64,000 bases of DNA from Rhizobiales bacterium NRL2 (GTDB taxonomy: Bacteria; Pseudomonadota; Alphaproteobacteria; Minwuiales; Minwuiaceae), in the NCBI GenBank assembly GCA_001664005.1, contig CP016093.1, positions 3,959,031 to 4,023,030 on the forward strand, in the 5' to 3' direction. Shown here piece by piece: positions 47,294 to 64,000 of the stretch. A program made the translations under genes and the position numbers. Under the pieces are notes generated by a model. The model saw only the letters and a program-made list of their open reading frames with translations, did no database searches and was not told where the DNA came from. Numbering within the stretch: the first letter of the stretch is position 1; each line of letters opens with the position of its first letter.

Positions 47294-47455
47294 ACGGCCG
47301 ATCGAAACAGCGGCCTGTTCACCTCCCAGACTGGCAAAACAGCGACTTATGTGATCTACTTTTCTTCGGTGGAAAGGCTGGCCCGACGCAGTCTTTCCAA
47401 TTTGTCACCCGCGGCGAATTCCTGATGTCCGCCGCGCATTCGTCGGAGTCCGATC

Positions 47456-48169
47456 ATGCCTTTGCTGAATATCAACCGCCCGGATGGTTTCAACGTACTC
47501 CTCGGTAGGATGCTCTATCCGGACAAGCGGCCGGATGAAACCAGGCGCGCCGCGGATTGCGCAAGCCAGATCACAGCGGCAGCGATCTCAGCCTATCCGG
47601 GACGGGTTGGGGAGATTTGGCGCGAGGGGTTGTCCGGAAAGCATAGTGCGATCAACGTCGGACTCGACGATCTGCCGACGCGATGGCGGCGCGGCACAGC
47701 CGCCGGCGCGACACTCTGGATGCTTTTCGCGCTTCACGGTTCGGAGCCTCAAAGAGCATCCTGGAACTTGGCCGCTGACCTGGTCGAGGAGCATGCAAAG
47801 GATCCCGACTTTCCGAAGGACAAGACAACGCTGCTCAATTGCGTCAAGCAGTTCCGGCCTGTGCTTCATTTCTGGGGCGCCCTCTGGATGCGTGAGGGCG
47901 GCTTTCGCGTCGATTTCGAGAACCAGGGCCCGGCCGTTGATGACTTCCGACGTTTTCTGACCACGGCGGAAATCCTTCGGCAGTGGGGACAGGCAACTCA
48001 GTCCGGGCGAAAGCCCAACAAACCATTCCTGCCGGCAAACATGTGGACGGTCCCGCAGGAATTGCTGCTGCTGGAACCGCCCAAAGGGCCGGTAAAGCTT
48101 CATGCGCTCACTCTGGATGAGGCCATCTTTAATGGCCGCAAAAAGCCCGGTCGGCCGAGGGTTGTGTAA
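47456..48169 (+). CDS. Hypothetical island protein
   Basis: A 237-residue protein with ATG at 47456 in AT-richer sequence. It is tryptophan-rich and helical (AAGATLWMLFALHGSEPQRA, LLNCVKQFRPVLHFWGALWM) with a basic C-terminus (NGRKKPGRPRVV). No known motif is visible. A 162-bp gap separates it from the previous gene and 102 bp from the methyltransferase, so it may be its own unit. Function unknown. Confidence 0.55.
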   Translation: MPLLNINRPDGFNVLLGRMLYPDKRPDETRRAADCASQITAAAISAYPGRVGEIWREGLSGKHSAINVGLDDLPTRWRRGTAAGATLWMLFALHGSEPQRASWNLAADLVEEHAKDPDFPKDKTTLLNCVKQFRPVLHFWGALWMREGGFRVDFENQGPAVDDFRRFLTTAEILRQWGQATQSGRKPNKPFLPANMWTVPQELLLLEPPKGPVKLHALTLDEAIFNGRKKPGRPRVV

Positions 48170-48261: not shown

Positions 48262-48271
48262 GAAATTGGCT

Positions 48272-49684
48272 ATGTCGAAGCGATATCATCGCAAAACCCG
48301 CTCTCCTCGCTCCGCCGTTTGCACGCAGGCCATCGAACGCCGGCTGGGTCCGCTTGAAATCCAGGATGTGGCGATCGGCGAACTGAGGCCGAACCCGCGC
48401 AACCCGAAGACACATTCGGCGAAGCAGGTCGGGCAGATCGCGGCAAGCATCCGGGAGTTCGGGTTCTGCAACCCGATCCTGGTCGACGAGGACAGCCGGG
48501 TCATTGCCGGGCACGGGCGTCTCGAGGCGGCCCGGCTGCTGCAGATGGCCAGTGTACCGGTGATTCGGCTTGCCGGGCTCAGCGAGGCACAGAAGACGGC
48601 GCTGGCGATAGCCGACAACCGGATCGGGGAGAACGCGGGCTGGGACGAAGAGTTGCTTGCCCTTGAGATCGAGAGCCTGCTCGACACCGGGATCGACCTG
48701 ACCTTGACCGGCTTCGAGATGGGCGAGATCGACCTGGTTCTCCAGGAGGGCGAGGACGGCCCCGCCCTCGACGGCGACGACGAGATCCCGGAGGCGGGCG
48801 CCGATACACCGGCCGTCACGCGCCCGGGCGATCTCTGGCTGGTCGGCAAGCATCGCCTGCTCTGCGGCGATGCCCGTGACCCGGCTGCCTACGGGCGGCT
48901 GCTCGACGGTGAGACGGCGGCGCTCTGCTTTACCGACCCGCCCTACAATGTCGCGATCGGCGGACACGTCTCCGGCCTCGGCCGTCATCACCACCGCGAG
49001 TTCGCGATGGCGAGCGGCGAGATGGCGGAAGCCGACTTCGTCACTTTCCTCCGGACCACCCTCGGTAACGCGGCCCGGGTCAGCAGCGATGGCGCCATCC
49101 ACTTCGTCTGCATGGACTGGCGCCATATCCACGCCCTGCTGACCGCGGGGCGCGACGTCTACCGCGAGCTCAAGAACCTCTGCGTCTGGAACAAGGCCAA
49201 TGGCGGCATGGGCACGCTCTATCGCTCCAAGCACGAACTGGTCGCCGTCTTCAAGGCGGGCACGGCATCGCACATCAACAATGTCGATCTCGGCACCCAT
49301 GGCCGCTACCGGACCAATGTCTGGGACTATGCCGGCGCCAACAGCTTCGGCGCCGGCCGCGACGAGGCGCTCGCCATGCACCCCACCGTCAAGCCCGTCG
49401 GGCTGGTCGCCGACGCTATCCTCGATTGCTCGAACCGCGGCGACCTCGTCCTCGATCCCTTTGCCGGCGCGGGCACCACGCTCGTGGCGGCCGAGCGCAC
49501 GGGCCGGCGGTGCGTCGCGATGGAACTCGACCCCGCCTATGTCAACGTCACCATCCGGCGGTGCCGAAAGGCCTTCGGCGCGGAGATCACGCACGCGGAG
49601 ACCGGGCGGTCCTTCGACGAACTGGCGGAGGAGCGACTGGCGGATGAGCGCCGGGCCGACCAGGCAGAGGAGGCCGGCAAATGA
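48272..49684 (+). CDS. ParB-domain DNA methyltransferase (N4/N6 type)
   Basis: A 470-residue fusion with ATG at 48272. The N-terminal part (about 30-125) is a ParB/sulfiredoxin-like domain (LRPNPRNPKTHSAKQVGQIA, VIAGHGRLEAARLL). The catalytic part is a beta-type amino methyltransferase: motif IV DPPYN at 222-226 comes before motif I DPFAGAGTT at 395-403. Target sequence unknown. Such ParB-methyltransferase fusions are common on phages and islands of alphaproteobacteria, often next to a terminase, as here: the next gene (DUF5681) starts within the stop region (4-bp overlap). Confidence 0.88.
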   Translation: MSKRYHRKTRSPRSAVCTQAIERRLGPLEIQDVAIGELRPNPRNPKTHSAKQVGQIAASIREFGFCNPILVDEDSRVIAGHGRLEAARLLQMASVPVIRLAGLSEAQKTALAIADNRIGENAGWDEELLALEIESLLDTGIDLTLTGFEMGEIDLVLQEGEDGPALDGDDEIPEAGADTPAVTRPGDLWLVGKHRLLCGDARDPAAYGRLLDGETAALCFTDPPYNVAIGGHVSGLGRHHHREFAMASGEMAEADFVTFLRTTLGNAARVSSDGAIHFVCMDWRHIHALLTAGRDVYRELKNLCVWNKANGGMGTLYRSKHELVAVFKAGTASHINNVDLGTHGRYRTNVWDYAGANSFGAGRDEALAMHPTVKPVGLVADAILDCSNRGDLVLDPFAGAGTTLVAAERTGRRCVAMELDPAYVNVTIRRCRKAFGAEITHAETGRSFDELAEERLADERRADQAEEAGK

Positions 49685-50130
49685 GCGAGGACGAAAACGA
49701 AGACAAGGTCGGCTACGGGCACCCGCCGAAACACTCGCGCTTCAAGCCCGGCCAGTCCGGCAACCCGAAGGGCCGGCCAAAGGGCCACCGGAACTTCGGA
49801 ACGGATTTGCGCGAGGTCCTGGCCATGACCGTCGAAGTCAAGGTCAGGGGAAAAGCCCGGACGCTCACCTCACAGCAGGCGATGCTTTACCGACTGCTTG
49901 AAAAAGCTTTGAAAGGAGAAAACCGGGCAAGCCAGCTGCTGCTCGATCTGGCCGCCCGCTACAACGGGGAGGCGCCGGCACATGACAGTGACCCGGCGCT
50001 CCCCGACGAGGACCAGGCGATCCTCAAGCAGTACCTGGCCTCCGGGCAGGCGAAGGCACCGGACGATGCAACGACAGAGGATCAGGACGGGGGACCGGAG
50101 AAGTCCGGCCAGGAGGACGAGGATGAATGA
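49681..50130 (+). CDS. DUF5681 domain protein, putative small terminase-like
   Basis: A 149-residue protein. The N-terminus has the DUF5681 signature RFKPGQSGNPKGRPKGHRNF, followed by a helical middle (QQAMLYRLLEKALKGENRAS) and an acidic tail. DUF5681 proteins lie directly before terminase large subunits in many prophages and are thought to take the DNA-recognition (small terminase) role. It overlaps the methyltransferase by four bases and the terminase start by eight bases, forming a tight three-gene unit. Confidence 0.8.
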   Translation: MSEDENEDKVGYGHPPKHSRFKPGQSGNPKGRPKGHRNFGTDLREVLAMTVEVKVRGKARTLTSQQAMLYRLLEKALKGENRASQLLLDLAARYNGEAPAHDSDPALPDEDQAILKQYLASGQAKAPDDATTEDQDGGPEKSGQEDEDE

Positions 50131-51580
50131 CCGCCGCCTCCTGGACGCGCTTCTCCGAACGGACCTGAATGCATTCATCCAGAAATGCTTCACCACCCTC
50201 TCGCCCGGAACAGAATTCAAGGCCAACTGGCACATCAGGGCAATCACCTATGAGCTCGGGCAATGCCTGGAGAACGATGGCGGCCGGTTGGTGATCACCC
50301 AGCCGCCGCGGTCGCTGAAGTCGATTTCCACCTCCGTCGCCTTCGTCGCCTGGGCCCTCGGTCATAACCCGGCCATGCGGTTCATCTGCGTCAGCTACAG
50401 CAACGAGCTCTCGGAGGAACTCGCCCGCCAGTTCCGCCTGGTGGTGGACAGCGACTGGTACCGCCGCCTGTTCCCGGCCATGAAGCTGTCGCGGTCAACC
50501 GCGACGGAGTATGTGACGACGAGGGGCGGCGGGCGCCTGGCCACGTCCGTCGGCGGCACGCTGACCGGCCGGGGCGCCGACATCATCATCATCGACGATC
50601 CCATGAAGGCGTCGGACGCGCAGTCCGAGTCCGCCCGGCGCAAGGTCAACAACTGGTTCGCCGAGACCCTCTCGACCCGCCTGAACGACAAGCGAAAAGG
50701 CGCGATCATTCTGGTGATGCAGCGCCTCCACGAGGAAGATCTCGCAGGCTACGTCCTCGAAGCCGGCAATTGGCGTCACCTCGACCTGCCGGCCATCGCC
50801 ATCGAGGACGAGCAGATCCGCATCGGGCCGAAGCCGGGGGACATCCACTATCGGCGGAAGGGCGACCTCCTCCACCCCGACCGGGAGCCCCGGGAGACCA
50901 TCGAGCGAATGCGCGGCGAACTGGGCAGTCTCGCCTTCTCGGCCCAGTACCAGCAGCGGCCGGTGCCCCTGGAGGGCAATCTCGTCCGTCGCGACTGGTT
51001 CCGGCGCTACGACACGGCACCCGTGAGGAGCGAGAACATGACCGTGGTCCAGAGCTGGGACATCGCGGGGGCGATCGGCGAACGGGCCGACTACTCCGTT
51101 TGCACGACCTGGCTGGTCGACGGCCGCAGGCTCCATCTTGTCGACGTCTGGCGCGGGCGGCTCGAATTCCCCGCTCTGCGCAAGCGGGTGATCGGGCATG
51201 CGATGGACCACCAGGCCAATGTGGTGCTGGTCGAGAAAGCCGGGCTGGGGCTGAGCCTGGTCCAGGATCTGCAACAAGGTGCCCCCGACAGCTTCCCCAG
51301 CCTGATCGGCATTGCCCCCGAGGGCGACAAGGTCGTCCGCATGGTGGCGCAGAGCCAGCGGCTTGAGGCCGGCGACGTGTTCCTGCCGGAGAAGGCGCCA
51401 TGGCTGGCGGACTTCCTTCACGAGGTTCTGGCCTTCCCTCACGGACGCAATGACGACCAGGTCGACAGCCTGTCTCAGTTCCTCAAATGGCAGCGGTATT
51501 GGGAGCCCCCGATCGACATCGGCAGCCCCGGCGGCGATCGAATTGAGAATATCCTGCCGCCGTTCGAATACGATGACTGA
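50123..51580 (+). CDS. Phage terminase large subunit
   Basis: A 485-residue packaging motor with ATG at 50123. The ATPase domain has a Walker A-like QPPRSLKS (60-67) and Walker B DIIIIDDP (residues 153-160), with QRLHEEDLAGYVL as coupling region. The nuclease domain shows VQSWDIAG with the first metal aspartate and GRNDDQVDSL with the last acidic cluster. All motifs needed for activity seem present. It is not followed by portal, protease or capsid genes, which is unusual for a prophage. Confidence 0.88.
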   Translation: MNDRRLLDALLRTDLNAFIQKCFTTLSPGTEFKANWHIRAITYELGQCLENDGGRLVITQPPRSLKSISTSVAFVAWALGHNPAMRFICVSYSNELSEELARQFRLVVDSDWYRRLFPAMKLSRSTATEYVTTRGGGRLATSVGGTLTGRGADIIIIDDPMKASDAQSESARRKVNNWFAETLSTRLNDKRKGAIILVMQRLHEEDLAGYVLEAGNWRHLDLPAIAIEDEQIRIGPKPGDIHYRRKGDLLHPDREPRETIERMRGELGSLAFSAQYQQRPVPLEGNLVRRDWFRRYDTAPVRSENMTVVQSWDIAGAIGERADYSVCTTWLVDGRRLHLVDVWRGRLEFPALRKRVIGHAMDHQANVVLVEKAGLGLSLVQDLQQGAPDSFPSLIGIAPEGDKVVRMVAQSQRLEAGDVFLPEKAPWLADFLHEVLAFPHGRNDDQVDSLSQFLKWQRYWEPPIDIGSPGGDRIENILPPFEYDD

Positions 51581-53510: not shown

Positions 53511-55031
53511 TCAAGTCTCGAAGTCGAAGAACTGGCCTGCGCTGACACGCACGCGATTTCCGCACACACCAGAGGCCTCTATACGCTCAATCGCAAGAGG
53601 GTCGGCGCTCTCCGCGACCACACCTTTGCCGTCCGGCGCTGTAGCGATAACTACTGCCTTGTCCGGCTTGCCCTTGGTATAAAGAACCGTCTCGCCGTCT
53701 ACGCGCGCCTCGCCTTCGTACTCCATGGTGACCGCACGCGTGCGAGACTCCCGCTTCACGGCCTCAGTCACATCTGCCCAGTAGAAACCTTCAGCCGGGC
53801 GATCGCTCCAAATTCCGAATGCCTGCTTCGTAAGGACGCCCGAGGCGTTGGAGATGAGCCCGAGACGGGGCGCTTGCCGACCTGCTCCACCGCCAGAGGG
53901 GACGCGCTGCGAGGCTTGAAGAAGATCGGCCATGCGGCACACCGCCTGCAGTGTGTAATTATTGTAGGGTCCGCCGGCGAAGCTCATTCCACCCGTAACG
54001 GTAAGCGGTCTTCCCACGGGAACGCCTAGTTCCGACCCATAGAGTTCGACGGCGGCGGGAAATGCGCTGTAGAGATCAAACAGGTCAATGTCCTCGATAT
54101 TGAGGCCCGCACCAGACACCGCCTCTCTTCCCGCGATGGCTGCGCCCGGGACTCGCCACAGCTCAGTGCGCGTCGACGCCTGAGCCATGTAGTTGGATTC
54201 CGTACTGGAGATTGGATAGATCCAACTGCTTTCGGGAATGCCGAGCTCGCGCGCCCTGGCGATGGAACAGAAAATCAGCGCACCAGCCTGATCGACGCTC
54301 CAGCTCGAGCACATGCGCCGCGTATATGGAAACGCCTGCATCGGATTCCGTTCAGAGGGAATCTCTACCTCCTCAGGCATGTAGGTCTGCCGGTTCCAGG
54401 CGTCAGGATTCGCGGCGGCGACCTCGCTGAAGCCGCTCCACAGCTCGGCTATAGCGTGCCGATGCTCGGCGACCGAGCGGCCAAGTTGAGCCCGAAAGGC
54501 GCTGTGCGCCATACAGTAGATGCCAATCGGCATCTGCAGGCCCACACGGAGTTCCGCCGGATGGCGCAGTTCCTGTTCTGGCGACCAGACGGCGCCCGGC
54601 TCATCGCGCTGCTGGCGGTCTTCAATCTCGACGTCGGCGATGCGCGCGCGCAGCAGCCGATAGCCGGCCTCGCCGCCGACGACAAGCGCTGTCCCCAGTT
54701 CGCCGTCGCGGATTCTGCGGCAGGCATCACCGATCAGAGTCTGCTGCAGGACACCGACCGTCGACAGCACGGTGCGTGCATGCGGTGCGCCAACCGCGCG
54801 TCCGATCTCGCCGCCGGGGTTCGCATACGACCAGCGGCCCCTAGGCGTGTAGATGCACTCAATCGTCGCCAGCACCCGTTCGCTGGCGGCGCGGCGCGCG
54901 GCGGCGCGTGTCGCGTCAATCATGAGGTCAATCGGCTCGCGCGCAGTCGTTGCGTCGTCCTCACGCTGGCTGACGGCAGCCCAGCCCACTAGGACCGGGG
55001 TGGCGGGATCAAGGGATTGCGTTTCGGTCAT
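53511..55031 (-). CDS. Thiolase-like acetyl-CoA acetyltransferase family protein with C-terminal OB-type domain
   Basis: A 506-residue thiolase-fold protein. N-half: DPATPVLVGWAAVSQRED, then VLSTVGVLQQTLIGDACRRI where true thiolases carry the nucleophilic cysteine; here no cysteine is in place. The second half has DIDLFDLYSAFPAAVEL and GGMSFAGGPYNNYTLQAV. The last 80 residues form the extra beta domain typical of this subgroup (YEGEARVDGETVLYTKGKPD). Function is probably C-C bond cleavage or CoA-ester handling other than classical thiolysis. Codon use is less GC-biased than in the core genes. Divergent from the PRISE-like genes. Confidence 0.8.
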   Translation of the reverse strand: MTETQSLDPATPVLVGWAAVSQREDDATTAREPIDLMIDATRAAARRAASERVLATIECIYTPRGRWSYANPGGEIGRAVGAPHARTVLSTVGVLQQTLIGDACRRIRDGELGTALVVGGEAGYRLLRARIADVEIEDRQQRDEPGAVWSPEQELRHPAELRVGLQMPIGIYCMAHSAFRAQLGRSVAEHRHAIAELWSGFSEVAAANPDAWNRQTYMPEEVEIPSERNPMQAFPYTRRMCSSWSVDQAGALIFCSIARARELGIPESSWIYPISSTESNYMAQASTRTELWRVPGAAIAGREAVSGAGLNIEDIDLFDLYSAFPAAVELYGSELGVPVGRPLTVTGGMSFAGGPYNNYTLQAVCRMADLLQASQRVPSGGGAGRQAPRLGLISNASGVLTKQAFGIWSDRPAEGFYWADVTEAVKRESRTRAVTMEYEGEARVDGETVLYTKGKPDKAVVIATAPDGKGVVAESADPLAIERIEASGVCGNRVRVSAGQFFDFET

Positions 55032-55160
55032 GGGCTCACGACTCCGTCAGGCTGGTGAAATCGGGCTCGGGCCGCGGGGGGCATGCTAGACACGCCCCGC
55101 CCGCCGATGCGAGGTTGCGATGGCCGGCCAGGAAGGGCCGGCGCCTACGGCGAGGGCGAC

Positions 55161-56261
55161 ATGGCGCGGCGCAAGATTCTGATAGCAGGAGCATCCGGGC
55201 TGGTGGGCTATGCGGCCATCAAGCATTTCACGGCCCGGCCCGACGCGGAGGTGATCGTTGTCTCGCGGCGACAACCGCCCGAACTGCACGGCGCACGCTT
55301 CATCGCCCTTGACCTGTTCGACGCCGGGAGTTGCGCCACCACCGCGGCCGATTTGGCCGACGTCACCCACGTTGTCTATGCCGCCGTCTACGAGAAGCCA
55401 GGGCTGCTCGACGGCTGGCGGGAGCGGGACCACATCGAGACCAACGCGCGCATGCTGCGCAATCTGATGGAACCGCTGTTGGCGCGTAACAATGCACTGC
55501 GTCACGTCGTGCTGCTGCAGGGAACGAAAGCCTACGGGGCACATGTCCGACGCTTCCCGATCCCAGCCCGAGAGGGACGCACGGAGGCGCGCGACATCGA
55601 CAACTTCTACTGGCTCCAGGAGGACTACATCCGCGAGCGCCAGGAGGGGCAGCCCTGGTCTTGGACAATTTTCCGGCCGCAGGTGATCTTCGGCGAGTCG
55701 ATCGGCAGCGCCATGAACGGAATCGCGGCCATCGGTGTCTACGCGGCACTGCTCCGCGAGGCCGACCAACCGCTCCGCTTTCCGGGCGGCCCGCCGATAG
55801 TGCTTGAGGCCACCGACTCCGGCCTGCTGGCACGGGCGATCGACTGGGCGGGCGAGAACGCGGAGGCGGCAAACGAGGTCTTCAACATCACCAATGGCGA
55901 CGTCTTCGTCTGGGAGAATTTGTGGCCGGCAATCGCCGAGACCCTCGGCATGGAGGTGGGCGAACCGCGGCGAACCTCGCTGGCAGAGACGGTGCCGCCT
56001 CAAGCCGGAACATGGGATCGGATTCGACGGAAATACGATCTGCAAGCGCCTCCGCTCAACGAATTCATCGGTGAGTCGCTGTATTTCGCGGACAGCAATC
56101 TGGGTTACTACCTCAAGCGAGGCGGCCACGCACCGCTGGTGTCGACAGTCAAACTTCGCCAAGCCGGCTTCCATGAGGCCATGCACACCGAGGAGATGAT
56201 GTGTGGCTGGTTCCGCACCTTCCAGAAACACCGGCTGCTGCCGCCAGCCACAGACAACTAG
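55161..56261 (+). CDS. PRISE-like SDR (enone reductase), first copy
   Basis: A 366-residue atypical SDR with ATG at 55161. The nucleotide motif is GASGLVG (10-16). Two features point to the progesterone 5-beta-reductase / iridoid synthase-like group: the lysine motif LLQGTKAYG and the catalytic tyrosine motif NFYWLQED at 148-155 (plant form NFYYxxED), followed by WSWTIFRP. These enzymes reduce the C=C of enones with NADPH. The start gives the family N-terminus. A close paralogue follows 21 bp downstream. Substrate unknown; the neighbours suggest a CoA-dependent catabolic pathway. Confidence 0.82.
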   Translation: MARRKILIAGASGLVGYAAIKHFTARPDAEVIVVSRRQPPELHGARFIALDLFDAGSCATTAADLADVTHVVYAAVYEKPGLLDGWRERDHIETNARMLRNLMEPLLARNNALRHVVLLQGTKAYGAHVRRFPIPAREGRTEARDIDNFYWLQEDYIRERQEGQPWSWTIFRPQVIFGESIGSAMNGIAAIGVYAALLREADQPLRFPGGPPIVLEATDSGLLARAIDWAGENAEAANEVFNITNGDVFVWENLWPAIAETLGMEVGEPRRTSLAETVPPQAGTWDRIRRKYDLQAPPLNEFIGESLYFADSNLGYYLKRGGHAPLVSTVKLRQAGFHEAMHTEEMMCGWFRTFQKHRLLPPATDN

Positions 56262-56282
56262 AGCTCCGACGAGGACTCCGCC

Positions 56283-57380
56283 ATGGCACGCCGACATGTT
56301 CTGATCGCGGGCGCCTCCGGGCTGGTCGGCTACGCGGCACTCAAGCATTTCACCGCCCAGCCGGAAACGGACGTCACTGTCATCTCGCGTCGGTCGCCGC
56401 CGGCCATCAACGGGGCTCGCTTCGTGTCGATTGACTTGTCCGACCCCGCGCGATGCGCCGAGGCCGCTGCCGCGCTGGCTGATGTCACCCACGTCGTCTA
56501 CGCCGCCGTGTACGAAAAGCCGGGCCTCGTCGCCGGTCGCCTCGAGCGCGACCACACCGAGACTAACGGGCAGATGCTCGTCAACCTGATGGAGCCGCTG
56601 CTCCGCGCCGCCCGGCACCTTCGGCACGTGACCCTGCTGCAGGGCACAAAGGCCTACGGCATCCACGTGCGGCGCTTCCCCGTGCCAGCGCGGGAGGGAC
56701 GTTCGGAAGCGCACGACCAGCACAGCTTCTACTGGGTGCAGGAGGACTACCTGCGCGAGCGCCAGCAGGGTCAGCCCTGGTCGTGGACGATCTTTCGCCC
56801 GCAGCTCATCTTCGGCGAGTCTGTTGGCAGCGCCATGAACCTGATTGCCGCCCTCGGTGTATATGCCGCGCTGGCGCGCGAATCCGGCCAGCTGTTCAGT
56901 TACCCGGGCGGTGCGACCGCCGTATGGGAGGCGACGGATTCCGGCTTGCTGGCGCGAGCCATCGACTGGGCCGGCGAGAGTGACGCGGCGGCGAACGAGG
57001 TCTTCAACATCACCAACGGCGACGTCTTCGTCTGGGAGAACCTCTGGCCGGCGATCGCCGAGAGCCTCGGCACGGGGATAGGCGAGCCGCGGCGCACGTC
57101 GCTTGCGAAGACAATACCGCCGCAGGCTGCGGCTTGGGACCGGATCCGGGCGCGCCACGACCTGAAAGCGCCAGCCCTGGCGGACTTCGTCGGTCAGTCG
57201 CTCCATTTCGCCGACTACATCCTGGGCTACGATCGCGACGAAGATGGTTTTACACCGCTCGTCTCCACGGTGAAGATCCGCCAGGCCGGATTCCACGAGG
57301 CGATGGACACCGAGGCGATGATGTGTGGCTGGTTCCGGACCTTCCAGATGCATGGCCTCTTGCCGCCGCCGGGCGGCTGA
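56283..57380 (+). CDS. PRISE-like SDR (enone reductase), second copy
   Basis: A 365-residue paralogue of the preceding gene, similar along the whole length. It has the same nucleotide motif (GASGLVG), LLQGTKAYG, and the tyrosine motif as SFYWVQED, with the first asparagine changed to serine. The C-terminal blocks EVFNITNGDVFVWENLWPAI and MMCGWFRTFQ are shared by both copies. The tandem pair probably acts on related substrates or on two steps. It ends 13 bp before the convergent DUF35 gene. Confidence 0.82.
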   Translation: MARRHVLIAGASGLVGYAALKHFTAQPETDVTVISRRSPPAINGARFVSIDLSDPARCAEAAAALADVTHVVYAAVYEKPGLVAGRLERDHTETNGQMLVNLMEPLLRAARHLRHVTLLQGTKAYGIHVRRFPVPAREGRSEAHDQHSFYWVQEDYLRERQQGQPWSWTIFRPQLIFGESVGSAMNLIAALGVYAALARESGQLFSYPGGATAVWEATDSGLLARAIDWAGESDAAANEVFNITNGDVFVWENLWPAIAESLGTGIGEPRRTSLAKTIPPQAAAWDRIRARHDLKAPALADFVGQSLHFADYILGYDRDEDGFTPLVSTVKIRQAGFHEAMDTEAMMCGWFRTFQMHGLLPPPGG

Positions 57381-57393
57381 CCTCCCGAAACGC

Positions 57394-57810
57394 CTAGACC
57401 GCCGGGGCGTAGGCGGCCACGTAGTAGCCGTCCGCTCGCACCGGCTGGAGTCGGACGCGAATTCCGATCTGTGGCTCGCCCCCGTCCGCGTCGACGAACA
57501 GGCTTGGAATGCGCACGCCCGGCGCATCTTCTGGCTCGACCAGCATCACTGTGTAGGGCAGATCTGACGGGTCGCCGTCGGGCAGAAAGCTGTGGTAGAC
57601 GGTAGTGAAGCTGTAAACGCGCCCGAAATCGGAGGCGCGCCGCCACTCCACCTCCGCACCCGGATGGCATGGCGCCACCGGCTTCGGATACCAGATACGG
57701 GCGCCACAGGCACCGCAGGTCGGCAAGTGCAGTTCACCGCGCGAAAGGCATTCGTAAAAATACTCACCGCCCTCACTGATATAGCGGGGCGCCTGGTGGG
57801 GAACGCCCAT
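57394..57810 (-). CDS. DUF35 OB-fold protein with zinc ribbon
   Basis: A 138-residue protein with ATG at 57810. The rubredoxin-like ribbon is mostly kept: LPTCGACGARIWYPKPVAPC shows three of the usual four cysteines. The OB fold follows (WRRASDFGRVYSFTTVYHSF and the ending strand GIRVRLQPVRADG). It directly follows the thiolase-like gene (1-bp gap), so the two form a complex by analogy with ChsH2-Ltp2. It is the second such pair in the window. Confidence 0.85.
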   Translation of the reverse strand: MGVPHQAPRYISEGGEYFYECLSRGELHLPTCGACGARIWYPKPVAPCHPGAEVEWRRASDFGRVYSFTTVYHSFLPDGDPSDLPYTVMLVEPEDAPGVRIPSLFVDADGGEPQIGIRVRLQPVRADGYYVAAYAPAV

Positions 57811-57811
57811 C

Positions 57812-58960
57812 TCAATGGTCCTTCCGCAGGATTGCGACGGCATGTGCGCCGGCGCCGTAGCCCGAGACGATGCCCATGTCAGCGCCCGGCACCTGGCCCT
57901 CACCACGAACGCCGCGAAGCTGACGTACCGCCTCGACCATCAACACACCACCGGGGACGTAGGCGTGCGCCATGTGACCGCCACTGGTGTTGATCGGGAT
58001 GCGGCCGCCGGGCGCGGTGGCCCCGGAATCGAAGAGCCGGGCCCCCTCTCCGCGCTCGGTCAGGCCGATGCGCTCAGCCTGGTTGATGCAGGCAATCGAG
58101 AAGCAGTCGTATATCTGGGCAAACTTCATGTCCTTCGGTGCCGCGTCAGCCATGCCATAAGCACGCTCCACCGCCTGCTTGGTCGGGAAGTCGAGCAGGT
58201 CCTCGGACTGACTCAGCACGGCCGACATCGGCTTTCTGTGGAAGCCCATGCCAATCCCGGCGGCGACCACCGGCGGCTGCGGCAGGTCGCGGGCACGTTC
58301 GACACTCGTGACGATGTACGCGCAGGCGCCATCCGTAATCAGGCAACAATCCGCGGCGCGCAGCGGCGTTGCAATCATCTGGCTCTGGAGATAGCCCTCG
58401 AAGTCGAGGGGCTTTTTCTTCTGTGCCTTATCGTTAAGCAATGCCCATTGGCGGCTGGAGCGCGCGACAGCGCTCAGCTCACGCTCGGTCATTCCATGTT
58501 CGTGGACGTAGCGCTGCGCCATGGCAGCGAAGTACACGGCCTGACCGTAGTAGCCGACCGGCATCTCGTAGTCGGCCTTGTCGGGGTCATGCTTGTGGAA
58601 TTCGTAGGGGCCACCCGGCCGCGACGACTTCATCGAAGACGGCACAAGGACGGTTGTCGCCAGCCCCGCCTCGATAGCGAGCTGGGCCAGCAGGAGTCCG
58701 CCCACGGCCGACGCGCCAGCGGCGGCCTCATTGCGCGACATGAAGCCAATATTTTCGACGCCGAGCGCCTCGGCAACCTCGTCGATAGTCAGATTGTAGA
58801 CGCCGACCAGCCCGTCGATGTCGCGCGGCGTCAGTCCAGCGTCGGCGAGCGCGTTGTGCGCGGCCTCGACGACCATCTCCAGCGGCGACTTCGGGCTGGC
58901 CCGCATGAAGGGTGTCTCACCGACCCCGACGATCGCTACCTTGCCGCTCTGCATATTCAT
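57812..58960 (-). CDS. Thiolase-superfamily protein (Ltp2-like), non-canonical
   Basis: A 382-residue thiolase-fold protein with ATG at 58960; the open frame upstream to 59065 crosses the palindrome and is rejected. The first half has ALADAGLTPRDIDGLVGVYN. At the nucleophile position the sequence reads NEAAAGASAVGGLLLAQLAI, without cysteine. The second half has QIYDCFSIACINQAERIGLT and INTSGGHMAHAYVPGG. It pairs with the DUF35 gene just downstream. The missing cysteine favours an aldolase or other lyase rather than a thiolase. Confidence 0.83.
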   Translation of the reverse strand: MNMQSGKVAIVGVGETPFMRASPKSPLEMVVEAAHNALADAGLTPRDIDGLVGVYNLTIDEVAEALGVENIGFMSRNEAAAGASAVGGLLLAQLAIEAGLATTVLVPSSMKSSRPGGPYEFHKHDPDKADYEMPVGYYGQAVYFAAMAQRYVHEHGMTERELSAVARSSRQWALLNDKAQKKKPLDFEGYLQSQMIATPLRAADCCLITDGACAYIVTSVERARDLPQPPVVAAGIGMGFHRKPMSAVLSQSEDLLDFPTKQAVERAYGMADAAPKDMKFAQIYDCFSIACINQAERIGLTERGEGARLFDSGATAPGGRIPINTSGGHMAHAYVPGGVLMVEAVRQLRGVRGEGQVPGADMGIVSGYGAGAHAVAILRKDH

Positions 58961-59025
58961 GGGGCCGCCTCCTCCGCCTGCGTTCGGGCGGCCGACGGGC
59001 CGCCATTCGTGCACAAGGCTTTGTT

Positions 59026-59050
59026 GCATTATCGATAATCGATAGAATGC
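59026..59050. promoter_or_regulatory. Palindromic operator candidate in divergent promoter
   Basis: Overlapping inverted repeats: ATTATCGATAAT (59028-59039), TATCG-N5-CGATA (59030-59044) and outer GCATT/AATGC. The element lies between the divergent thiolase-like and acyl-CoA synthetase genes and is AT-rich. The GntR/FCD regulator at 61691-62392 is a plausible binder. Confidence 0.55.
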
Positions 59051-59107
59051 GGCGTACGGTAGCACGGGTCAAGGACGGGCCCAATCCCGCGTGGGCTGGA
59101 GTACCGG

Positions 59108-60715
59108 ATGCGGGAACGGGCGATCGGGGAGGACTTCGAAATGTGGATCGAGCGCGAGCCGGTCACGGTCTGCACCTATACGGACGCCAATGCGCTGGCG
59201 ATGCACAATGCAACGGCGGTGCAGTCGCTCGACGAGCGTGTCACGTGGAACGAACTGCACACGCGCACGAACGCGCTCGCACGACATCTGCAGGAAGCCG
59301 GCATGCGGCGCGGCGACCGGCTGGCGCTGCTGGTCGACAGCGGCGTTCCATTCGTCGAGCTTGTACTCGCGGCCCTCAAGGCCGCGATCAGCGTTGTCCC
59401 GTTGTCGCCGATGCAGACACGCGACGTGCTGGCGCGCCTGATCAACGACGCCGAGGTACGCGCCATCGCCGCCAGCCCGACGCACCTCGAGACCGCCCGG
59501 GAACTCGCTGCGTCCCGCGGCATCGGCAGGCCCCTGACACTGGTTGATCGCGGCGAGGCCGAGGGCTTTCATTCGCTGGAGTCGATACTCCGCTGCGGCG
59601 ACGCGAGCGACCTGATGACATGGCCGGCGCCGGAGGACGAGTTCAACGTCATCTACTCGTCGGGCACCACGGGGCTGCCCAAGGGCATCGTGCATACCCA
59701 CGAGTCGCGGCTGTTCAATGCGCTGGGCTGGGGCTACCGCTACCAGATCACGCGCGGCTCAACGATGCTCCTCACAACACCGCCGGCTACCAACGCGACC
59801 TGGGTCAACCTGATCCCGACGCTGCTCGCCGGCGGGCGTCTCGTGCTGCTGCCCAAGTTCGACGCCAACCACACCCTCGAAACCATGGAGGCGGAGGGAG
59901 TCACCCACACGCTGCTTGTTCCGACGCAGGTCAAGGCGCTGATGGACGTCCCGGATCTCGAGCGCTTCGATCTCTCCAAGCTCAGCTGCGTTGTCGTCGG
60001 CGGCTCGAAGTTCTCACGCGCGTTAAAAGAGCAGGCGTCGCAACGGCTGCCCGACCGACTGCACGAGATGTACGGAACCACTGAATGCGGCAGCACCGTA
60101 CAGTACCCGAACGAGCTGCCCGAGAAGATTGAATCAGTCGGCCGTCCGATTTTCGGCGCGGAGTTCCGTGTCATTGATGACGACGGCCACGAGCTGCCGC
60201 AGAGTGAGCGCGGCGAGCTGGTGGTGCGGGGCACGACGATGATGAAGGGCTACCTCAACCGTCCCGAAGCGAACGCCGATATCATCTGGCGCGACCATCG
60301 TGGACGGATCTTCATCCGCACCGGCGACGTTGGCCGCCTCGACGCCGACGGTTGCGTCTACGTCCTCGACCGCAAGCGGGACATGATCGTCACCGGCGGT
60401 TTCAACGTCTTCGCCTCAGATCTCGAGGACGTTCTGCGAGAGCACAGGTCGGTCGACGACGTGGCCGTGGTGGCAGCGCCGCACGCGAAGTGGGGCGAAA
60501 CACCAGTCGCCCTGGTCATCCCGGCCCCCGGCATCGTTCTGGACGCGGAGGATCTGCGTGCCTGGGCCAATGCCCAGCTCGGGAAGTACCAGAGGCTCGG
60601 CGCTGTCGTTGTCCGGCGCACTCCGTTCCCGCGCAATCATCTGGAGAAGGTGCTCAAGCGCCAACTGCAGAGCGAGTATGCGGACGAGTTCAGCCGCCTT
60701 TTCCCTGGCAGCTGA
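59108..60715 (+). CDS. Acyl-CoA synthetase (AMP-forming)
   Basis: A 535-residue class I adenylate-forming enzyme. The P-loop is VIYSSGTTGLPKGIVHTHES, the A4/A5 region has MYGTTECGSTVQ, the hinge area is RIFIRTGDVGRLDADG, and the C-terminal catalytic lysine is in FPRNHLEKVLKRQL. It activates a carboxylic acid to its CoA ester using ATP. Residues after GTT differ from housekeeping fatty-acyl ligases, so the acid may be cyclic or branched. First gene of a plus-strand pair with the lactonase. Confidence 0.9.
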   Translation: MRERAIGEDFEMWIEREPVTVCTYTDANALAMHNATAVQSLDERVTWNELHTRTNALARHLQEAGMRRGDRLALLVDSGVPFVELVLAALKAAISVVPLSPMQTRDVLARLINDAEVRAIAASPTHLETARELAASRGIGRPLTLVDRGEAEGFHSLESILRCGDASDLMTWPAPEDEFNVIYSSGTTGLPKGIVHTHESRLFNALGWGYRYQITRGSTMLLTTPPATNATWVNLIPTLLAGGRLVLLPKFDANHTLETMEAEGVTHTLLVPTQVKALMDVPDLERFDLSKLSCVVVGGSKFSRALKEQASQRLPDRLHEMYGTTECGSTVQYPNELPEKIESVGRPIFGAEFRVIDDDGHELPQSERGELVVRGTTMMKGYLNRPEANADIIWRDHRGRIFIRTGDVGRLDADGCVYVLDRKRDMIVTGGFNVFASDLEDVLREHRSVDDVAVVAAPHAKWGETPVALVIPAPGIVLDAEDLRAWANAQLGKYQRLGAVVVRRTPFPRNHLEKVLKRQLQSEYADEFSRLFPGS

Positions 60716-60746
60716 GGGCAGCCATCCACCCACAGGAGGTCAGACC

Positions 60747-61673
60747 ATGCTACCGCCACCACCCGATATCGAGACCAGAGTCTTTGCCCGGGTCCCCGAG
60801 GAGTTGCAGGCCGAGGAGCGGCCGTCTCGCTGGCTCGATCAGTTGGGCCGGGTGTTGGGACGTACCGCACGCATGGGTTCGTTCCTTGAAGGCCCCTCCT
60901 TCGACCGCGATGGCAATCTTTATCTCGTCGATCTTGCCCACGGGCGCATTTTCCGCGTCTCACCCGACGCGGAGTGGAGCGTGGTCGCCGATTATGACGG
61001 CCAGCCCAACGGCCTGAAGATCCACCGTGATGGCCGCATCATCGTCACAGACCAGCAGAACGGACTGGTCGAGATCGATCCCGTCAACGGCAAGGTGACA
61101 CCGTTTCTGCCAGCCGATCTGATCCACGGCTACAAAGGCGTCAATGATCTGTTCTTCGCCGAGAACGGCGACTGCTATTTCACCGATCAGGGTCAGATGA
61201 CAGGCTTGCAGGACTGGGCCGGACGAGTGATGCGCTATACGCCTGCGGGTCGTCTCGAGGTCGTCCTGGACAAAGTGCCAAGCCCCAATGGACTGGTGAT
61301 GAATCTCGCCGAGACAACACTGCATGTCGCAGTCACGCAGATGAATGCCGTCTGGCGGGTGCCCTTCCTGGACGGCAAGGCCGTCAAGGTCGGTGTGTTC
61401 ACCTACCTGATGGCTGGTATCGGGCCGGACGGGCTGGCTCTCGACATCGAAGATAACCTTGCCATTGCTCATCCGGGCAACGGCCAGGTCTGGCTGTTCG
61501 ACCCTCACGCCGTACCTATCGCACGCCTGGTTTCATGCGCAGGCAAACTGCCTACCAACGTCGCCTATGGCGGCCCTGACAACAAACAGCTTTTCATCAC
61601 CGAATCGGAGACTGGGACCGTGCTGGTCGCCGACCTGCCGGTACCCGGCAAGCCAATGTACTCGCACATGTAG
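60747..61673 (+). CDS. SMP-30/gluconolactonase family lactonase
   Basis: A 308-residue six-bladed beta-propeller. Metal-binding positions are recognisable: the glutamate in FLEGPSFDRDGNLYLVDL, the asparagine and aspartate of GVNDLFFAENGDCYFTDQ, and the aspartate in GIGPDGLALDIEDNLAIAH. The start at 60747 follows CAGGAGG. These enzymes hydrolyse lactones in a divalent-metal-dependent way. Its place 31 bp after the acyl-CoA synthetase gene suggests that a lactone intermediate is opened in the same pathway. Substrate unknown. Confidence 0.87.
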   Translation: MLPPPPDIETRVFARVPEELQAEERPSRWLDQLGRVLGRTARMGSFLEGPSFDRDGNLYLVDLAHGRIFRVSPDAEWSVVADYDGQPNGLKIHRDGRIIVTDQQNGLVEIDPVNGKVTPFLPADLIHGYKGVNDLFFAENGDCYFTDQGQMTGLQDWAGRVMRYTPAGRLEVVLDKVPSPNGLVMNLAETTLHVAVTQMNAVWRVPFLDGKAVKVGVFTYLMAGIGPDGLALDIEDNLAIAHPGNGQVWLFDPHAVPIARLVSCAGKLPTNVAYGGPDNKQLFITESETGTVLVADLPVPGKPMYSHM

Positions 61674-61690
61674 GCGGTCTCTCAACTCCC

Positions 61691-62392
61691 TCAGACAGCC
61701 TCACGACGCGGGATGGACTGAGTCACCATGTTCTCGCGGATCTCACTGATCGAGATTGTGTGCATTGTGGCGAGCGCGGCGACGGCCGCATCGGCGTCGC
61801 CGCGCTCACAGGCTTCGAGCAGAGCGCCATTCCGCTGCGTCCAGCGTGCAACATAATCGAAGAATATCGCGGGATTGGTGACGTAGCGCCCGATATTGCC
61901 GCGACAGTGATCGCAGATTTCCAGCATCCGCGACCACCCGGAGGCGGCAAGCAGCGCGCGGTGGAACGCTTCGTTGGCCCGGTACCAGACGATCGGGTCA
62001 TGCTTGTTTTCCGCCATCACCGAAAAATTCCGACGCATATCCGCGAGCGTCCCGGCATCCAGGGTCGGGACCACCCGACGCGCTGCACTCTGTTCCAGGG
62101 AAGCGACAATGCAGTACATCTCGTCCAGTTCGTCGGGGCTCATGCGCGAAACGACGGCTCGGCGATGAGACTCCAGTGTCACCAGCCCTTCCGCGGCGAG
62201 GACGCGTAGCGCATCGCGGACCGGCGCCTGACTAACGCTGAACTCGGTCGCCAACCGGCCCTGCAGCAGTGGCTCTCCCGGCGCGACATCACGCGCCAGG
62301 ATACGATCGCGCAGGGTGGCCGCTATGGATTCCGCCAGCGTTCGTGGTCCCGCCCGCTCCAATTTGAAACTGGACCTGTTTGTATCTGCCAT
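61691..62392 (-). CDS. GntR family regulator, FCD type
   Basis: A 233-residue regulator with ATG at 62392. The N-terminal winged helix has LAESIAATLRDRILARDVAP and the recognition part FSVSQAPVRDALRVLAAEGL. The C-terminal FCD domain has the metal-site residues in WYRANEAFHRALLAASG and the later histidine of ALATMHTISI. FCD regulators bind small organic acids or CoA intermediates. It lies downstream of the second acyl-CoA synthetase on the same strand and converges on the lactonase gene, so it is the likely local regulator. Confidence 0.88.
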   Translation of the reverse strand: MADTNRSSFKLERAGPRTLAESIAATLRDRILARDVAPGEPLLQGRLATEFSVSQAPVRDALRVLAAEGLVTLESHRRAVVSRMSPDELDEMYCIVASLEQSAARRVVPTLDAGTLADMRRNFSVMAENKHDPIVWYRANEAFHRALLAASGWSRMLEICDHCRGNIGRYVTNPAIFFDYVARWTQRNGALLEACERGDADAAVAALATMHTISISEIRENMVTQSIPRREAV

Positions 62393-62470
62393 ACGCGACT
62401 CCGTAGCCGTTCCCTGCCGAAGCGAAATGAACGCGGTCATTAGCAGATTGTTTCGCCAAGGCGAAGCCTG

Positions 62471-64000
62471 TCAGGCGCCGCTCTTGGCCTGCGCCTGTGA
62501 GCTAAGCCGGCCCATGACACGGTCGCGATCCCAGGCGTTCGCGTTCCCCCAGTCCTTTACCTTTCCCCGCTCGACTTCCCGCTTGGTCGCCGAACGCGGA
62601 AAATCGTCGACGAACTCGATGAATCGCGGAATCTTGAATGCGGCCATGCGTGTCCCGCACCATTCTACGAGATCGACGGGATCAGGTGCCTCGGCTCTGG
62701 CCATCACATAGGCCTTGACCTCCTCCTCCCCGAGTTCAGAGGGGACGCCAACGACGATGACCTCCTCGACTGCTGGATGCTGGCTCAGAATATTCTCGAC
62801 CTCGTAGGCGGAGATGTTCTCGCCGCGCCGACGCAGCCAGTGCACCTGGCGGCCTTCGAAGAACAAATTGCCCGCTGAGTCGAGGCGTCCGATGTCACCA
62901 GTGTGCAGCCACTGGTTCCGCATGACCTCAACCGTCAGGATCGCGTTGTTGTGGTAGCCCAGCATGAAGCTGAAGGGCACGGTCGGCCGCATGACGATTT
63001 CGCCCGAGACGTCTGCCGGCTGCGACTGGTCAAGTGCGTCGACGACTGCGACTTCGCACCAACCATGCGGCCGCCCCACGGAATCGGGTACCTGATATCC
63101 GAGCCGGTTGCTCGTCAGCATGCCACCCCCAGCCTCGGTCAATCCGTAGATATCAACGATGTCGATGCCAAAGCGCTCGGCGAAGCGCGCCGGCACCGAT
63201 TCGGGAAGTTGGCCGCTGACGCCCGTGGTAATCCGAACATGGTGATCTCGTTCGCCAGGCGTCTCCTCCTGCTGCGCCAGCACGGTCATCATCGTGCCGA
63301 TCGGGTCGATCACGTCGGCGTCAACCTCGATCACGCGCTGCCAATAGCCCGAGCCGCTGAAGCGGCGATCCATGACAACGGTCATGTCATTGAACAGCGG
63401 GCCAACGATGCCGAGCTGGACGCCGCCGGCATGGAACAGCGGCAATGTCGAATAGTGACGTTCTCCCGCCCGGGCCTCGAGCACCTCGCCATATCGCAGA
63501 CCAGCACAGACGTGGGCGAAGTGTGGCAGCACCACGCCCTTGGGCAGCCCCGTGGTACCGCCCGTGTAAATGATCATCGCCGGATCGCCGGGACCTATGT
63601 CGGTTTCGGGCAACGCGCCGCCCTCCAGGATCAATTCCTCGAAAGGCACGACGCCATTGACCTTGCCGCATTCACCGACACCAACCAGAACAAGGTTTTC
63701 GGGCAGCTTCTCCCGGATGGCAGCAATACGATCCCAGGTCTCGTCCTCGACGACAAGCAATGTGGCGCCAGCATCACGCACCGCATAGGCAAGGTCATCG
63801 CCGCTCAGCGCCGCATTTAGGGGCGCCCATATGGCACCCACCCGGCCCGCAGCGAACCAGCCGAACAGCTGCTCTGCGCAGTTGTACATGTAGCTGGCGA
63901 CACAGCCGCCCTTCTTGATGTCATGGGCGACCAAGCCGCACGCGACAGCCTGCGAAAGCCGGTCGAGTTCGGCGTAGCTCAATCGGCGGCCATATATCTC
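62471..64000 (-). CDS. Acyl-CoA synthetase (CaiC-like), 5' end outside window
   Basis: About 509 codons of a class I adenylate-forming enzyme; the start lies beyond 64000. The P-loop is MIIYTGGTTGLPKGVVLPHF, the A5 region is DIYGLTEAGGGML, and the hinge region is HWLRRRGENISAYEVENIL, as in the crotonobetaine/carnitine-CoA ligase branch. The C-terminal catalytic lysine lies in PRSATKREVERGK. It is upstream of the GntR gene, 78 bp away. Its place next to the other synthetase suggests that two different acids or two stages of one pathway are activated. Confidence 0.88.
   Translation of the reverse strand, partial: EIYGRRLSYAELDRLSQAVACGLVAHDIKKGGCVASYMYNCAEQLFGWFAAGRVGAIWAPLNAALSGDDLAYAVRDAGATLLVVEDETWDRIAAIREKLPENLVLVGVGECGKVNGVVPFEELILEGGALPETDIGPGDPAMIIYTGGTTGLPKGVVLPHFAHVCAGLRYGEVLEARAGERHYSTLPLFHAGGVQLGIVGPLFNDMTVVMDRRFSGSGYWQRVIEVDADVIDPIGTMMTVLAQQEETPGERDHHVRITTGVSGQLPESVPARFAERFGIDIVDIYGLTEAGGGMLTSNRLGYQVPDSVGRPHGWCEVAVVDALDQSQPADVSGEIVMRPTVPFSFMLGYHNNAILTVEVMRNQWLHTGDIGRLDSAGNLFFEGRQVHWLRRRGENISAYEVENILSQHPAVEEVIVVGVPSELGEEEVKAYVMARAEAPDPVDLVEWCGTRMAAFKIPRFIEFVDDFPRSATKREVERGKVKDWGNANAWDRDRVMGRLSSQAQAKSGA

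Follow-up and report, generated by a model that had tools for sequence, protein, structure and literature searches.

The cluster described here lies at the right-hand end of the window, i.e. the 64,000-nucleotide stretch of DNA from Rhizobiales bacterium NRL2 (contig CP016093.1) that was analysed. Positions above 64000 are window coordinates extended via locus L009 (offset 60970). A cluster of 10.5 kb had originally been predicted from the sequence; it is real but larger, and the window edge cuts it inside the gene of its second acyl-CoA synthetase. The complete module consists of 14 genes and spans approximately 16 kb (about 53.25–69.3 kb), from a gene for a TLP1-type thiolase-like protein to a gene for an LLM oxidoreductase.

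Open reading frames and profile searches confirmed the two predicted acyl-CoA synthetases, the DUF35 protein, two PRISE-like SDRs, the SMP-30 lactonase and the GntR/FCD regulator. Two rather than the expected three thiolase-fold proteins were found, both without the nucleophilic cysteine of thiolases. Extension to the right, which had been proposed as a check, added a TRAP transporter (DctPQM), a cyclase-family hydrolase, the LLM oxidoreductase, a CaiB CoA-transferase and an amidohydrolase. The centre of the module is formed by the genes for acyl-CoA synthetase A (ACSa; 59108–60715, + strand; PF00501/PF13193), the SMP-30/gluconolactonase-family lactonase (60747–61673, + strand; PF08450), the GntR/FCD regulator (61691–62440, − strand; PF07729, PF00392) and acyl-CoA synthetase B (ACSb; 62471–64090, − strand, identified by profiles, with its start beyond the window; L009:1501–3120). 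The genes for CaiB (L009 8570–9823, − strand) and a D-aminoacylase-like amidohydrolase (L009 9820–11541, − strand), which together occupy 69540–72511, lie beyond the module.

Enzymes and transporter of the module

The canonical thiolase motifs (the nucleophilic Cys of CxS, GHP and CxG) are absent from both thiolase-fold proteins. TLP1 (53511–55031, − strand; PF18313, 29.3 bits, over the cut-off) has a thiolase fold with altered thiolase motifs and no catalytic Cys, followed by the TLP1 C-terminal domain. It matches the TLP1 of Mycobacterium smegmatis (4egv, E 7e-39), a protein without thiolase activity (PMC3406046) that shares both the C-terminal domain and the missing Cys; unlike its mycobacterial counterpart, the TLP1 of the cluster is located among catabolic genes.

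The second thiolase-fold protein, LTP (57812–58960, − strand), is of the Ltp2/Sal type (SCP2-type); its matches include Ltp2 from the Ltp2–ChsH2 complex (6ok1, E 2e-50) as well as further SCP2-type proteins. The catalytic set of Ltp2 comprises the Tyr of YDHF and Tyr344, and that of Sal the Tyr and Cys of YDCY; Sal has a Gly at the position of the thiolase nucleophile (PMC12329534). LTP carries YDCF at residues 284–287, with Gly82 in place of the nucleophile and Tyr334 where Ltp2 has Tyr344, and thus has the residues of an Ltp2/Sal aldolase (the Tyr of YDxF/Y, no nucleophilic Cys, an acid residue). The same pattern (YDCF, Gly, Tyr) is common to all three orthologues at about 50% identity. On this basis we predict that LTP is a retro-aldolase with acid residues of both types, a hybrid site that unites the Cys of Sal with the Tyr of Ltp2 and differs in this from either enzyme. 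Cleavage of a C–C bond on a CoA ester, as originally proposed, is still predicted, the likely mode being retro-aldol; thiolytic cleavage by LTP is not supported by its motifs.

The DUF35 zinc-ribbon/OB protein (57394–57810, − strand; PF01796, with a match to ChsH2, 6ok1_B) is encoded 1 bp downstream of LTP, and the two form the same pairing of a thiolase-fold protein with a DUF35 partner as Ltp2–ChsH2 and Sal–Shy (6ok1; PMC12329534). Its zinc motif, CxxC-x12-CHP, in which CHP replaces the second CxxC and the fourth Cys is missing, fits neither ChsH2 nor Shy, and three Cys plus CHP make a ligand set different from the published four-ligand zinc sites (C4 or C3H1). Of three orthologues of the DUF35 protein, two likewise have CHP and one reads CCH. 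Further differences from the two aldolase systems are the lack of a fused or linked MaoC hydratase and of a steroid context.

PRISE enzymes are able to reduce steroids, and to our knowledge the bacterial members have no settled physiological role. PRISE 1 (55161–56261, + strand; PF22917, over the cut-off) and PRISE 2 (56283–57380, + strand; profile match) are tandem duplicates with 73% identity. Both keep the equivalents of Arg63, Lys147 and Tyr179, in agreement with the definition of PRISE/VEP1 proteins (PMC3144213); in PRISE 1, Lys147 and Tyr179 correspond to K123 and Y150, and an SRR motif for NADPH is present. The pair shares these residues and GxxGxxG with progesterone 5beta-reductase and iridoid synthase (E 7e-36 to 6el3) but has FYW instead of FYY, and is distinguished by its tandem arrangement in a CoA catabolic cluster. 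With the catalytic residues intact, both proteins are predicted to catalyse the NADPH-dependent reduction of 1,4-enones, the promiscuous activity ascribed to PRISE enzymes in PMC11643720.

The TRAP transporter (64315–67216, + strand; L009 3345–6246) has all three components (P, Q and M), as do other DctP-type systems (SiaP, 4n4u). It differs from them in DctP, which has Glu in place of Arg147 (KVETDSP versus KIRVTSP and KLRVSSP), a residue kept in about 97% of the TRAP binding-protein family (PMC4646407). A Martelella protein with 42% identity to DctP has Arg at the same position in a gapless register. Since DctP lacks the carboxylate-binding Arg, the solute that is taken up may be something other than an acid.

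The two last genes encode the cyclase-family hydrolase (67251–68192, + strand; L009 6281–7222) and the LLM oxidoreductase (68335–69318, + strand; L009 7365–8348). The latter scores 188.7 bits against TIGR03619, a family of F420-dependent enzymes with a cut-off of 166.9 bits, and the genome encodes both CofD and CofH, each over the cut-off, in keeping with a host that makes F420.

A putative operator and a block shared with one congener

A 17-bp palindrome, TTATCGATAATCGATA(A/G), lies at 59029 in the divergent promoter between LTP and ACSa, and again at 64151 (L009:3181) in that between ACSb and TRAP. The copy at 64151 overlaps TTGACA-17-GATAAT at the TRAP promoter (11/12 sigma-70-type match), and the other copy (TTATCGATAATCGATAG, 59029–59045) overlaps a weaker promoter-like match at ACSa (TGCACA-18-GATAAT, 59010–59045, + strand). 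The 15-bp core of the palindrome has two exact copies in the whole 4.7-Mb genome, both in the cluster (about 0.0002 per strand are expected from base composition). Only one further genomic site lies within two mismatches of the core, and it has 2 mismatches; a reversed-pattern control yielded 0 matches in the whole genome. The GntR/FCD gene sits between the two sites, and its product is presumed, by inference, to be the reader of the palindrome. No copy is found in the TLP1|PRISE1 or the amidohydrolase promoter. Independent expression of the units, which had been named as an outcome that would speak against the cluster, therefore applies in part: the LTP|ACSa and ACSb|TRAP promoters carry the putative operator and the PRISE/TLP1 promoter does not.

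Among the seven genomes of the genus, the DNA of the region is shared by the genome studied here (G000) and one congener (G004) and is absent from the five others. The two genomes align from 51271, where the contig of G004 ends and bounds the leftward comparison, to 72666, with an overall identity of 97.7% that is unevenly distributed. At 53.25 kb, just beyond the TLP1 3' end, identity increases from 0.91 to 1.00; it then remains close to 0.99 until about 69.25 kb, where the LLM gene ends and the value falls to 0.89. Both flanks are approximately 92% identical, versus approximately 99% within the TLP1–LLM stretch. The background identity of the two genomes is 93.8–95.2% (two core loci). Values of dS are 0–0.07 within the block versus 0.13–0.24 for genes outside (Mrr-like, CaiB, amidohydrolase), and dN/dS is below 0.35 wherever it could be estimated in the block, from few differences.

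The simplest reading of these identities is that one block of 14 genes was recently exchanged between the two genomes. Direct or inverted repeats of at least 10 bp common to both block edges were not found, and the window contains no tRNA that could provide an attachment site. As the edges are unmarked by repeats, homologous recombination as the mode of exchange is a guess. Because the putative operator is confined to the cluster and the block is approximately 99% identical in one congener, the view that the catabolic cluster is a transferred and partly co-regulated unit is supported.

The surroundings of the block contain several other elements. Two inverted copies of one gene flank the cluster (47331–47941, + strand, and 76897–77507, − strand, in extended coordinates; 84.7% DNA identity); the gene encodes a 237-aa protein with no Pfam match and also has copies in G004. 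Judging from their translations, the genes at 48266–51580 encode a DNA methylase, a protein resembling DUF5681 and a terminase-like protein; the DNA at 48.6–49.7 kb has three further matches in the genome (71–72%). To the right (L009 16603–20000 and L010, about 77.5–85.5 kb in extended coordinates), translations suggest an SDR, a second GntR regulator, a TAXI-type TRAP transporter and an IS3-like transposase pair.

Occurrence in other genomes

In sampled searches, no genome other than G000 and G004 had the full set, and the partners vary at other loci (neighbourhoods of GC-rich comparison loci were determined by tblastn). Of 80 named PRISE loci, 13 have an LTP homologue at a distance of no more than 10 kb and 9 a cyclase homologue, as raw counts in which several loci represent one lineage. 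Relatives of the PRISE pair in named genomes reach approximately 61% identity at most, LTP relatives of at least 48% identity occur in only two sampled genomes outside the genus, and a closer plasmid copy of the cluster was not found.

A similar arrangement occurs in an operon of Azospirillum argentinense (p4/AbAZ39_p3; L142, L143), in which a PRISE gene is immediately followed by an ACSb homologue (50% identity), together with genes for a thiolase and a Zn-ribbon OB protein. It differs from the cluster in having genes for MaoC, crotonase, a BCAA-type ABC transporter and IclR but none for TRAP, LLM, SMP-30 or GntR, and its thiolase is only 32% identical and carries YDSF. Other combinations are an SMP-30 homologue (46%) after the TRAP genes in Martelella, a cyclase-family gene close to PRISE in Sinorhizobium and Microvirga, and an LLM gene near LTP and DUF35 in two further genomes (G130 and G233). 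The cluster thus combines pieces that recur pairwise elsewhere. A locus in Actinomycetota (L062) with PRISE, LLM, a cyclase (55%) and an amidohydrolase was considered a weak candidate because the translations of its neighbours look like purine and amino-acid genes. The block shared with a congener, the cluster-only operator and the Azospirillum operon all support the original view that the genes serve CoA-dependent catabolism and that the PRISE-like reductases belong to the same cluster.

Proposed route and alternatives

We consider it somewhat better than an even chance (a probability of about 0.55) that the 14 genes from TLP1 to LLM are a horizontally exchanged catabolic module with the following route. 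The TRAP system would import a small solute, not necessarily an acid, in which the SMP-30 and cyclase-family hydrolases would open a lactone or similar ring to give a hydroxy acid. ACSa, ACSb or both would form the CoA thioester, and LTP with DUF35 would cleave a beta-hydroxyacyl-CoA by retro-aldol reaction into a carbonyl compound and acetyl- or propionyl-CoA. Two redox steps are also proposed: enone reduction by PRISE 1/2 at the expense of NADPH, and an F420-linked step by the LLM enzyme. The GntR/FCD regulator would repress the LTP, ACS and TRAP units at the palindrome, probably until an intermediate is bound. The block contains no genes for an acyl-CoA dehydrogenase, a hydratase or a true thiolase, so that the route is incomplete unless genes elsewhere contribute.

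The missing operator at the TLP1/PRISE promoter, the promiscuity of PRISE enzymes and the presence of a third PRISE elsewhere in the genome would also fit two adjacent but separate units, i.e. a GntR regulon (DUF35, LTP, ACSa, SMP-30, ACSb, GntR, TRAP, cyclase and LLM) and an unrelated TLP1–PRISE unit that detoxifies reactive enones. We regard this as rather improbable, since both parts lie in one recombined block whose left edge is just past TLP1, and since the Azospirillum operon unites PRISE with the ACSb homologue and a thiolase/DUF35 pair. Degradation of a cyclic ketone with camphor-like logic is an unlikely alternative: PRISE would reduce an enone, the LLM protein, as an FMN-dependent monooxygenase, would form a lactone in a Baeyer-Villiger reaction, SMP-30 or the cyclase would open it, and the ACS enzymes and the aldolase would degrade the acid. 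One member of the LLM family is 3,6-diketocamphane monooxygenase (4uwm, one of the weaker matches), and two candidate ring-opening hydrolases are encoded, but the LLM score for the F420-dependent family and the CofD and CofH genes argue against this chemistry, and a flavin reductase gene was not seen in the block. Degradation of a steroid or bile-acid side chain, where the closest characterised relatives of LTP–DUF35 are active (Ltp2–ChsH2, Sal) and which the steroid reduction possible for PRISE enzymes would suit, is highly improbable in view of the deviating DUF35 zinc motif, the lack of hydratase and acyl-CoA dehydrogenase partners in the block and a genome search that gave no convincing KshA (a marginal, partial KshA_C match of 23.5 vs 23.3 bits over 62/207 positions); a steroid ring substrate is disfavoured by the same search.

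For the 14-gene module as a whole, we tentatively suggest a transferable pathway not previously described in which PRISE would reduce an enone, a redox step would depend on F420, a lactone would be opened, and a new subgroup of LTP–DUF35 aldolases would carry out retro-aldol cleavage. Its substrate might be a natural product other than a steroid, perhaps a non-acidic one, for example a terpenoid or a butenolide. If this is true, the retro-aldol chemistry of Ltp2 and Sal works outside steroid catabolism. The block makes the role of PRISE enzymes testable, as it joins a pair of them with CoA ligases, a transporter and a predicted aldolase and carries the putative operator on its larger part, and it contributes a TRAP system that would not be expected to bind carboxylates. 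Elsewhere in the genome, the third PRISE-like gene is located at G000:C1:3832653-3833723 and has a counterpart in 95% identical DNA of G004, and a paralogue of the cyclase-family gene (67% identity) at G000:C1:3295954-3296883 has relatives in two other congeners.
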